Source of the DNA: Janthinobacterium sp. CG3
Lineage (GTDB): Bacteria; Pseudomonadota; Gammaproteobacteria; Burkholderiales; Burkholderiaceae_D
Length of the DNA: 64,000 nucleotides
Reading direction: 5' to 3'
NCBI RefSeq assembly: GCF_000344615.1
Contig: NZ_KB467824.1
Coordinates: forward strand, 909,658-973,657
The translations under genes were made by a program, and so were the position numbers. The notes below the pieces were generated by a model. It had not been told where the DNA came from. It saw only the letters and a list, made by a program, of their open reading frames with translations, and searched no databases. Within the stretch, counting starts at the first letter, position 1, and the number at the start of each line of letters is the position of its first letter. Below, one piece after another: positions 24,541 to 27,133 of the stretch.

Positions 24541-25752
24541 ATGACACAATCCCCAACTCCGCGCAGCTTTTCGCGCATCAATCGCCTTCCCCCTTACGTT
24601 TTCAATATCACCGCCGAGCTGAAGATGGCGGCGCGCCGCCGTGGCGAGGATATTATCGATATGTCGATGGGCAATCCCGACGGCGCCACGCCGTCCCACA
24701 TCGTCGACAAACTGGTTGAAACGGCCAAGCGCCCCGACACCCACGGTTATTCGGCGTCGAAGGGCATTCCGCGGCTGCGCCGGGCCATCTCGCATTGGTA
24801 CAAGAAGCGCTACGACGTCGACATCGACCCCGACGCCGAGGCGATCGTCACCATCGGCTCGAAAGAGGGCCTGGCGCATTTGATGTTGGCCACGCTGGAC
24901 CGCGGCGACACGGTGCTGGTGCCGAACCCGAGCTACCCTATCCATATCTGGGGCGCGGTCATCGCCGGCGCCGACATCCGTTCGGTGCGCATGAGTCCGG
25001 GCGTGGATTTCTTCGCCGAGTTGGAACGGGCGATCCGCGAAAGCTATCCGAAGCCGAAGATGATGGTGCTGGGTTTCCCGTCGAATCCGACCGCGCAGTG
25101 CGTCGAGCTGGAGTTTTTCGAGCGCGTCGTCGCGCTGGCCAAGCAGCACGACATCCTGGTGGTGCACGACCTGGCCTACGCCGACATCACCTTCGACGGC
25201 TGGAAGGCGCCGTCGATCATGCAGGTGCCGGGCGCGCGCGACGTCGCCGTCGAGTTTTTCACGCTGTCGAAAAGCTATAACATGGCCGGCTGGCGCATCG
25301 GCTTCATGGTCGGCAACAGCGAACTGGTGGCGGCGTTGGCGCGCATCAAGAGTTACCACGACTACGGCAGCTTTACGCCTGTGCAGGTGGCCGCGATCGC
25401 CGCGCTGGAGGGCGACCAAAGCGGCGTCAGCGACATCTGCGCGCAGTACCAGAGCCGCCGCGACGTGCTGGTGAAGGGCTTGATCGAGGCCGGCTGGCCG
25501 GTTGAGAAGCCGAAGGCGTCGATGTATATCTGGGCGCTGATCCCCGAGGCTTACCGCCACCTTGGCTCGCTGGAGTTCGCCAAGCGCCTGCTGGCCGAGG
25601 CCAAGGTCTGCGTCTCGCCCGGTATCGGCTTCGGCGAATACGGCGACGACTACGTGCGTTTCGCGCTGATCGAGAACGAGGCGCGCATCCGCCAGGGCTT
25701 GCGCGGCATCAAGGCGATGCTGCGCGACGGCATGGCGGCGGCGCCGCGCTGA
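24541..25752 (+). CDS. alaC: Alanine-type aminotransferase (AlaC-like), class I PLP enzyme
   Basis: 403 residues. Fold-type I aminotransferase features: [66 protein letters not shown], the aspartate for the pyridine nitrogen in [14 protein letters not shown], and the PLP lysine in [17 protein letters not shown]. The C-terminal arginine that holds the carboxylate is in the [12 protein letters not shown] region. Length and motifs match E. coli AlaC, which makes alanine from pyruvate and glutamate. In many beta-proteobacteria this gene precedes homoserine dehydrogenase; here it does not, and a DUF1272 gene follows. Substrate range is inferred. Confidence 0.85.
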
Positions 25753-25881: not shown

Positions 25882-26190
25882 ATGCTGGAACTCAGACCAA
25901 GCTGCGAGCACTGCGACATCGATCTACCTCCAGCCTCGGCGGAGGCGCGCATTTGCACTTATGAGTGCACGTTTTGCGTCTCCTGCGTCGACACCGTCTT
26001 GCACAACGTCTGCCCGAACTGCGGCGGTGGTTTCATTGCGCGCCCGGTCCGGCCGGCGCACAACTGGAAGGGCAACAACTATCTCGGCGCGGACCCGGCC
26101 GCCACCGTGCGCAAGCACCGGCCGGTTGACGCCGCCGTGCATGGCGAACTGCTGGCCAAGCTGCGCGAAGTGCCGCCCGCCCAACGTTGA
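25882..26190 (+). CDS. DUF1272 small zinc-ribbon-like protein
   Basis: 102 residues from the ATG at 25882, with AAGGAG 8 bases upstream. The sequence MLELRPSCEHCDIDLPP...ARICTYECTFCVSCVDTVLHNVCPNCGGGF is the DUF1272 signature, rich in CxxC pairs that should bind zinc. FIARPVRP is also conserved. The biochemical role is unknown. A -10-like TAGAAT at 25816-25821 with TTGCGC 16 bp upstream may drive it. Immediately downstream lies the first of the two repeated RNA/terminator elements. Confidence 0.85.
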   Translation: MLELRPSCEHCDIDLPPASAEARICTYECTFCVSCVDTVLHNVCPNCGGGFIARPVRPAHNWKGNNYLGADPAATVRKHRPVDAAVHGELLAKLREVPPAQR

Positions 26191-26205: not shown

Positions 26206-26343
26206 AGATATTCATCAGGCTTATCGGTGACATCATGCATATAAATTGGATTTATATGTCACGGCGCAGCATACTGCATCTGTCTCCTCTATTCTCCTCC
26301 AAGAAAATAGATTCAGCCCGCTCTCCGTAGCGGGCTTTTTTTA
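26206..26343 (+). ncRNA. Candidate small RNA element, copy 1
   Basis: The segment 26231-26342 is about 89% identical, without gaps, to 27021-27132, exactly 790 bp downstream. Weaker, spaced matches (AGATAT, TTATC) extend to 26206 like promoter boxes. It ends in an 8-bp GC-rich stem and T7. Just upstream is an invariant CU-rich stretch (TCTCCTCTATT, then TCCTCCAAG) that is complementary to Shine-Dalgarno sequences. All stem bases are conserved; changes fall in the terminator loop and elsewhere. A 31-codon reading frame (26235-26330, containing YMSRRSILHLSPLFSS) is also conserved in part, so a tiny peptide is an alternative. It may instead act only as an extended 3' end of the DUF1272 transcript. 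Confidence 0.5.
26315..26343 (+). terminator. Intrinsic terminator of copy 1 element
   Basis: Perfect 8-bp stem AGCCCGCT / AGCGGGCT with a 6-nt loop (CTCCGT), followed by seven T residues. It also terminates anything read from the DUF1272 gene. Confidence 0.9.
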
Positions 26344-26564
26344 TGCGCGCGGCATGGGCGCACTCTTGCGGGTGAAAATCTCGCCGCGAGCCGGCCATGC
26401 CGTAGCCGGTAGTGGGCGGCGCGCGGCTTGCGCTGTGTCAAGTTGTGGCGGTTCCAGCTCTCCGGGGGCACTGGGCGCTAGTCGGCCGAAGCGGACTGTC
26501 GTGTCTAAATGCCTCATTTATATTATCATTTGGCTTGGTAATCCCACGGATACAAGGAGATATG

Positions 26565-26957
26565 ATGTTCAGTCATGTAATGATTGGTTCGAACGACATC
26601 GAACAGGCAAAGCATTTTTATGACGCCGTCCTCGCAACGTTCGGGGCGGGCGAGCCATTCCGTAATCAAGCAGATTCCGGTCACAAGCGCCTCTTCTACC
26701 GGCACGACGGCAGTACTTTTTGCATCAGCGAGCCGATCGACGGGGAAGCGGCGACGTGTGCGAACGGCGGCACGATAGGCTTCAAATGCAGCTCGCCCGA
26801 ACAAGTGCAGCAATTTCACGACACTGCGGTCGCGCATGGCGGCCAGTCGATTGAAGACCCGCCGGGCCTGCGTGACGGCGCCATGGGGGCCATGCACCTG
26901 GCCTATGTTCGTGACCCGGACGGCAATAAGCTCTGCGCAATCTACCGTCCGAAATAA
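26565..26957 (+). CDS. VOC family protein (glyoxalase/bleomycin-resistance type)
   Basis: 130 residues from the second of two adjacent ATGs (26565), which stands 5 bases after AAGGAG; the ATG at 26562 is too close. The protein shows one full VOC module: MFSHVMIGSNDIEQAKHFYDAVLATFG at the start and HLAYVRDPDGNKLCAIYRP at the end, the usual glyoxalase-fold beginning and metal-ligand end. Metal-dependent lyase, isomerase or binding functions all occur in this family and none can be chosen. The upstream 200 bp (26344-26564) hold no other gene; TATTAT at 26521-26526 is a possible -10. The gene is AT-richer than its surroundings and is bracketed by the two repeated elements, as if it arrived or was duplicated as a cassette. 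Confidence 0.85.
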   Translation: MFSHVMIGSNDIEQAKHFYDAVLATFGAGEPFRNQADSGHKRLFYRHDGSTFCISEPIDGEAATCANGGTIGFKCSSPEQVQQFHDTAVAHGGQSIEDPPGLRDGAMGAMHLAYVRDPDGNKLCAIYRPK

Positions 26958-26995
26958 GCCATTCGTCTACCCGGGCGCGGAGTCTTTACCTGCGG

Positions 26996-27133
26996 AGATA
27001 TCACCAAATTTTATCTCTATCATCATGGAAATAAAGTGGTTTTATATGTCGCGCCGCAGCATAATGCATCTGTCTCCTCTATTTTCCTCCAAGATTATAG
27101 ATTCAGCCCGCTCTTCGCAGCGGGCTTTTTTTC
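26996..27133 (+). ncRNA. Candidate small RNA element, copy 2
   Basis: Second copy of the element at 26206. The core 27021-27132 aligns without gaps, and the CU-rich anti-Shine-Dalgarno-like stretch and terminator stem are unchanged. It starts about 40 bp after the VOC gene. The embedded reading frame (ATG 27025; containing FYMSRRSIMHLSPLFSS) loses the copy 1 stop codon and runs through the terminator. This argues that RNA structure rather than a peptide is conserved. Transcription start is not determinable. Confidence 0.5.
27105..27133 (+). terminator. Intrinsic terminator of copy 2 element
   Basis: The same 8-bp stem AGCCCGCT / AGCGGGCT with loop CTTCGC and T7. It would also end the VOC gene transcript. 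Confidence 0.9.

Follow-up and report, generated by a model that had tools for sequence, protein, structure and literature searches.

The two near-identical elements in the 64,000-nt window (the whole stretch of Janthinobacterium sp. CG3 DNA that was analyzed) are probably genes for "double-hairpin" sRNAs of the Rfam family RF02278, each behind its own predicted promoter with a common upstream box, that likely repress many mRNAs at their ribosome-binding sites (RBS) and are predicted to be under one conserved LeuO/BsrA-like regulator of the LysR type. Family membership, covariation in both helices, nine copies in the genome, a common upstream box and co-occurrence with the regulator were all computed here, and the same box was found before the regulator gene in other genera and in some other bacterial families. 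The RNA family itself is known, and the new part appears to lie upstream of it, in the LysR-type box and the candidate regulator. RF02278 is widespread, and a candidate regulator together with a precise predicted site makes the question of its control directly testable. The features of the region are collected in Table 1.

Table 1. Features in and around the twin sRNA genes, in window positions.
Feature	Position	Strand	Basis
Class I/II aminotransferase gene, conserved sRNA neighbor	24541..25752	+	Pfam PF00155
LysR-type box, copy 1 (T26211-N11-A26223, ends AATTGG)	26206..26249	+	PWM, de novo motif, alignment A2
-35-like TTGGAT, copy 1, 18-nt spacer	26246..26251	+	Read from sequence
-10-like CATACT, copy 1	26270..26275	+	Read from sequence
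sRNA copy 1, RF02278, ~63 nt	26281..26343	+	Rfam, 61.2 bits, E 7.4e-10, full length
Intrinsic terminator stem-loop, copy 1, then T-run	26315..26336	+	Terminator scan
Likely relic of group II intron 5' end, directly after copy 1 terminator	26344..26397	+	Sequence identity
VOC/glyoxalase-superfamily gene, insert between twins, outside the unit	26562..26957	+	Pfam PF00903
LysR-type box, copy 2 (T27001-N11-A27013)	26996..27039	+	PWM, de novo motif
-35-like GTGGTT, copy 2	27036..27041	+	Read from sequence
-10-like CATAAT, copy 2	27060..27065	+	Read from sequence
sRNA copy 2, RF02278, ~63 nt	27071..27133	+	Rfam, 60.1 bits, E 1.3e-9, full length
Intrinsic terminator stem-loop, copy 2, then T-run	27105..27126	+	Terminator scan

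An earlier, sequence-only reading had described two copies at an offset of 790 bp with about 12 differences in 112 positions, and the count proved exact: 26231-26342 and 27021-27132 align without a gap and differ at 12 of 112 positions. The ungapped repeat reaches further, over 122 nt (26221-26342 and 27011-27132, 87%), and is far beyond chance given that the runner-up direct-repeat family in the 2.6 kb searched was just 30 nt at 70%. The RNA starts were predicted near 26281 and 27071, which would make the upstream part of the repeat the promoter. Six of the 12 differences fall inside the 63-nt RNA, at positions 14, 25 and 26 (inner part of the first hairpin), 45 and 48 (terminator loop) and 63 (the end). 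As had been read from the sequence, both twins end in the same terminator hairpin, with an identical 8-bp stem and a T-run, and two differences, those at positions 45 and 48, lie in its loop. The claim that all stem positions are unchanged is correct for the stem of the terminator and for the five outer pairs of a first hairpin that is absent from that description, but not for the inner pairs of this hairpin. The proposal of duplicated sRNA genes is supported, each twin having a predicted promoter of its own, and the expected transcript of 75-110 nt gives way to a predicted length of ~63 nt.

Both twins scored above the curated cut-off of 50 bits for RF02278, which Rfam lists as "Betaproteobacteria toxic sRNA", and what had been taken as an unrecognized family is therefore one already known. 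No other Rfam family passed its own cut-off anywhere in the window, the best non-RF02278 match being anti-hemB at 22.4 bits against a cut-off of 49.5; AbcR and other Rfam sRNA families were rejected on that basis, and with them the earlier AbcR-like reading. In the predicted fold, each RNA has its UGUCUCC end unpaired and forms two hairpins, one with a CU-rich loop and the other the terminator, and in the fold of copy 1 the loop CUCCAA, which lies within UCUCCUCCAAGA, is unpaired, as is the UGUCUCC end. The twins thus have the architecture of the family, that is, two hairpins of which the second is an intrinsic terminator (as judged from covariation in both helices and the terminator scan), and a 5' end and loop that are CU-rich, unpaired and complementary to the RBS. 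The CU-rich stretch to which the sequence-only reading had drawn attention is indeed both conserved and complementary to ribosome-binding sites. In alignment A1, which holds the 49 distinct sequences among 66 listed matches (17 repeats were dropped, and two more loci had cut flanks), UCUC close to the 5' end is invariant and the unpaired UGUCUCC nearly so. Covariation in these 49 sequences supports both helices: 98.9% of the pair cells are standard, seven of the 13 pairs are changed on both sides, and none of 500 shuffles reached the observed pairing or covariation score. The number of further pair types is not unusual, as it was attained by 65 of the 500 shuffles.

Nine copies of RF02278 were identified in the genome to which the window belongs (6.27 Mb, 7 contigs), six above the cut-off and three at 43-45 bits, with the tenth-ranked match at just 20 bits. 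At E<=1e-4 the RNA was found in all 40 genomes of the genus, this one included, at 3 to 11 copies each, in 133 of 145 genomes of the bacterial family, at up to 20 copies, and in 84 of 150 genomes of the order. Three genomes (G132, G061 and G149) carry 17-20 copies each, a number far higher than the three to five known from Burkholderia.

A generic sigma-70 scan called no promoter at either twin. The short conserved patches AGATAT and TTATC, previously suggested to be promoter boxes, are real and were found to be parts of a conserved LysR-type site. In the gapless alignment A2, the pattern AT-N11-AT-N7-A is invariant in 50 of 50 upstream regions, at fixed spacing ahead of a -35-like AATTGG; its rows were picked for having this -35 anchor (13 of 127 upstream regions were left out for want of it) and exclude near-duplicates and one S17-type chance anchor (L067, removed by hand). 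T-N11-A is the hallmark of LysR-type sites (PMC8407307). When a PWM built from 33 promoters of the genus was applied to 30 sRNA loci from other genera of the bacterial family, these being the best-scoring matches, 19 of them showed a box at a score of at least 4.5, 31-32 nt ahead of the RNA; the remaining 11 had no box and were all of the S17 type (CCACCC stem). Outside the bacterial family none of 27 sRNA loci reached 4.5. Since sRNA promoters served as training data for the box model R2 and the first PWM, the copies of the genome itself score high by construction; among these, L007 and L009 have no box, and the promoter of L008, which was outside the training set, was matched only weakly (R2, E 0.175). 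The box has what we take to be a resemblance to CysB sites, and a literature search on CysB as its binder gave nothing usable.

Two other upstream elements were observed. In two genomes the promoter of the L007 paralog (L007 and L059) is preceded by an inverted repeat, CACCGTAGTTCTACGGT, which is possibly a separate operator. A different promoter element, TTGC(A/G)-NN-GCA, goes with the S17-type RNAs: it was seen in the 250 nt upstream of 11 of 11 loci in the bacterial family and of 15 of 27 outside it (S17-type loci among L062-L091, and L301-L329), counts that were set against dinucleotide shuffles only (shuffle means 0.45 and 0.73, respectively). PhaR was considered as the binder of this element in its TTGCA-NN-GCA form; the motif was absent from the one review consulted, and a literature search gave no match for TTGCAATGCACAA. 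The element is similar to the -35 of the Bordetella S17 promoter, reported as TTGCAT (PMC11722255).

The candidate regulator, encoded at G000:C1:4409750-4410727, is a protein with HTH_1 and LysR_substrate domains. Membership of BsrA and of LeuO was rejected because the NCBIfam scores fall short of both cut-offs (218 of 480 and 151 of 262, respectively), and we therefore label the protein LeuO/BsrA-like. The T-N11-A box of Pseudomonas BsrA fits the same class as the box in the window (PMC8407307). The regulator was found in 95 of 116 genomes and 34 of 44 genera of the bacterial family (E<=1e-70), and in 23 of 150 genomes of the order (E<=1e-50). Its presence coincides with that of multiple sRNA genes: at least two copies were found in 90 of the 95 genomes with the regulator versus 3 of the 21 without it (Fisher p 7e-14; G144 is assumed to be among the 21), and, by genus, in 32 of 34 versus 1 of 10 (p 7e-7), both tests ignoring relatedness. 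The regulator-less exceptions with at least two copies are G075, G084 and G110, the first two of which have congeners that bear the regulator. Such a candidate regulator, with a precise predicted site, suggests that the expansion of the RF02278 RNA in the bacterial family went with the regulator's box.

The box was then located on the regulator side as well. In the genome of the window R2 gave 12 matches at E<=10: seven before sRNAs (six of them training rows, L008 not), one of 22.1 bits (L209) between a LysR gene and an ORF of 101 aa that diverges from it, three before ORFs of 87-97 aa (one a DUF3563 gene), and a weak match near the last of these. Thirty regulator loci were scored with the sRNA-trained PWM (3.9 kb each, one shorter; six from the training genus, the present one included). 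In 26 of them the locus-best box was in the 350 nt upstream of the regulator, the box was not the best site in the other four, and 19 of the 30 reached a shuffle p<=0.01; R2 reported a box in 18. The best site was also upstream of the gene in one of two further loci of the bacterial family and in seven of nine regulator homologs from other families (50-62% identity), compared with four of 12 distant LysR homologs (35-41%) that served as a rough control, with scores of up to 6.6. Across eight genomes of other genera, R2 gave 26 matches at E<=0.1, of which 13 precede an RF02278-type RNA (one at 27 bits; L277, L279 and L284 are training rows) and five precede the regulator gene, in five of the eight genomes. 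The rest comprise two before DUF3563 genes, four before other small ORFs and two unassigned.

Scoring in the opposite direction led back to the twins. A PWM made from regulator sites, which had themselves been chosen with the sRNA-trained PWM, ranked the copy 1 box best and the copy 2 box second in the whole window. A de novo Gibbs motif was derived from 35 regulator upstream regions of other genomes, none of the same genus (one of them, L334, also runs into an sRNA gene), and scored the two promoters at 26.0 and 22.3, with the next site in the 64-kb window at 4.9; here the copy 2 box was the best site and copy 1 the other outstanding one. As is looked for in a regulon, a T-N11-A box was found at a fixed position before its predicted members and also in the regulator's own upstream region.

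Since the box at the twins matches the one before the conserved regulator gene, we predict that this regulator controls both of them. It would do so by binding the box at each twin, and it would act as an activator, a role that the weak -35 elements suit. By analogy with described relatives, the UCUCCUC end and the UCCUCC stretch likely pair with ribosome-binding sites, such that the translation of many mRNAs would be repressed, and a likely outcome is a damping of metabolism when the regulator senses its signal.

The sites before the regulator gene could also mean that the binder is another factor, one that controls the regulator too. In its full form, this alternative accepts the twins as RF02278 sRNAs and has another global factor occupy the box, with the LysR gene and the small-protein genes also under its control. 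Co-regulation by other proteins is possible at divergent LysR promoters, and the box is also found before DUF3563 genes (in three genera, the present one included) and several small ORFs. We nevertheless consider a separate global factor unlikely, because the LysR-type T-N11-A is present in 50 of 50 sRNA upstream regions and 25 of 25 regulator sites (similarity had played a part in choosing both sets), the box adjoins the regulator in most loci examined, nine of the ten regulator-less genera have no more than one sRNA copy in the sampled genomes, and the box is absent from all 11 S17-type RNAs sampled in the bacterial family. Far less probable is that the elements are mainly strong terminators or insulators between genes, with the conserved 5' part a by-product of copying. 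Their intergenic position and strong terminators fit such a role, as do the copies lying between successive genes in G038, but a terminator has no need of the near-invariant unpaired UGUCUCC, compensatory changes keep the first hairpin, and the conserved box stands at a fixed distance upstream. Moreover, expression is reported for the relatives in Burkholderia and Bordetella, together with observed or predicted action in trans (PMC5688073, PMC11722255).

The VOC gene sits exactly between the twins in this genome, and the sequence-only reading had described the RNAs as bracketing it. A single functional unit of twins and VOC gene, such as one in which the sRNAs guard the gene, is nonetheless hardly credible. 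No sRNA was identified beside any of 80 named VOC loci (the best 80 of 181, with up to 4 kb searched on each side and less on short contigs), the four top named relatives being from Massilia and Janthinobacterium. The gene occurs in two of the 40 genomes of the genus (E<=1e-30), and the other of these, G022, has no sRNA in the short stretch searched around it. Conversely, G002 and G003 carry twin RNAs beside the aminotransferase gene, 182 and 314 bp apart from start to start, and both are without the VOC gene. The VOC gene was rejected as a functional partner on these counts, and the bracketing is incidental. The conserved neighbor is instead the aminotransferase gene: it was found in 37 genomes, and an sRNA lay within 1.5 kb of it in all 30 loci fetched, the present one included. 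In G038, the RNAs are placed between successive genes of this region. A DUF1272 gene (25882-26190) lies between the aminotransferase gene and copy 1. Local duplication next to the aminotransferase gene is the likely origin of the twins, with the VOC gene likely entering between them later.

The stretch directly after the copy 1 terminator is a likely intron relic, as 26316-26397 aligns over 83 nt, at 84% identity, with the junction of an sRNA and an intron at another place in the genome; Rfam calls no intron in 26344-26397 itself. At two other loci of this genome, L005 and L009, group II introns with RVT_1 (reverse transcriptase) and GIIM (maturase) domains start directly after the T-run of the sRNA terminator, and the L009 intron matched Rfam RF02001 at 99.9 bits. 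Insertion after terminators is typical of class C introns.

Returning to the RF02278 sRNAs as members of the regulator's regulon, some regulator loci bear on how the RNA may have originated. In G275, from another bacterial family, the regulator and an RF02278 RNA above the cut-off (50.8 bits) are divergently oriented on either side of a box; 130 nt instead of 31 separate the end of this box from the RNA, and a second G275 copy that was tested has no box. In G041, G116 and G066, from three other genera, an RF02278-like hairpin pair lies 3' of a small ORF divergent from the regulator; these pairs begin UGUCUCCUC or CGUCUCCUC and match the model R1 weakly, at 28-32 bits. Most regulator loci are without such an RNA (1 of 30 was below E 0.01). 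The divergent RNA of G275 and the 3' hairpin pairs suggest that the RNA perhaps began as the 3' end of an operon divergent from the regulator. With respect to small proteins, those of ~80-101 aa encoded behind a LysR-type box at L209, L215, L216, L280 and L296 have an AELR motif near the C-terminus; none of the five matched a Pfam family and none of the four tested an NCBIfam family. DUF3563 small-protein genes lie behind the box at L217, L285 and L286, in three genera including the present one.

Several described RNAs are closely comparable to the twins. The Burkholderia cenocepacia RNAs ncS03, ncS05, ncS27 and ncS62 are likewise RF02278 members with two hairpins and CU-rich anti-RBS stretches, and are multi-copy, three to five copies being reported compared with the nine found here (PMC5688073). 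Overexpression of ncS27 slows growth and its silencing speeds growth, three of the copies rise in glucose medium and in starvation, and a common upstream motif is reported for three copies in a supplementary figure; the authors state that the regulator of sRNA accumulation is unknown (PMC5688073). The LysR-type box of the twins was seen in none of the 27 RNAs sampled outside the bacterial family. In Herbaspirillum seropedicae, four RF02278 sRNAs (Hsnc059, 063, 086 and 107) have been reported, multi-copy as in the present genome, in a paper in which no description of an upstream regulator was seen and whose main text does not mention LysR (PMC7011215). Among the literature matches listed, LysR is not mentioned in the main text of the papers that name RF02278.

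The S17 RNA of Bordetella pertussis has a 5' end nearly identical to that of the RF02278 RNA bdhR1, is Hfq-dependent and represses via RBS pairing, with 70 of 92 affected genes matching its site 1 or 2 at or near the RBS, and it is not similarly toxic in E. coli (PMC11722255). Its final form, S17S, is 67 nt long and is released by RNase E from a precursor of 190 nt (PMC11722255), whereas at the twins the promoter box puts the predicted start at the RNA itself. The S17 promoter was postulated to be repressed in one mode, by a repressor that the available text does not name (PMC11722255). The S17-type RNAs sampled in the bacterial family are without the LysR-type box that the twins carry.

A more distant likeness is to the CcsR/CIN1-type module, in which sRNAs lie downstream of a small-protein gene in one transcript; the twins were not assigned to this type, as they are free-standing. 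The loops of CcsR RNAs are CU-rich. In the CIN1 locus of Rhodobacter, several CcsR sRNAs are tied to the gene of the DUF1127 protein CcaF1 under one control, an arrangement that resembles the one proposed here, and are cut by RNase E from one transcript with that gene (PMC10253847). CcsR belongs to another bacterial class and has an RpoH-type promoter and a DUF1127 protein, whereas the RNAs of the window's family are mostly free-standing, have a LysR-type box, and are accompanied by small proteins that are DUF3563 or unclassified. Tentatively, and with slightly more doubt than belief, we propose that the LeuO/BsrA-like regulator commands a riboregulatory regulon, in which the anti-RBS RNA would be the former 3' end of a divergent small-protein operon that escaped as boxed free-standing genes, in up to 20 copies, alongside box-controlled DUF3563 and other small proteins. 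Such a regulon would be the betaproteobacterial counterpart of the alphaproteobacterial module of small protein and CcsR.
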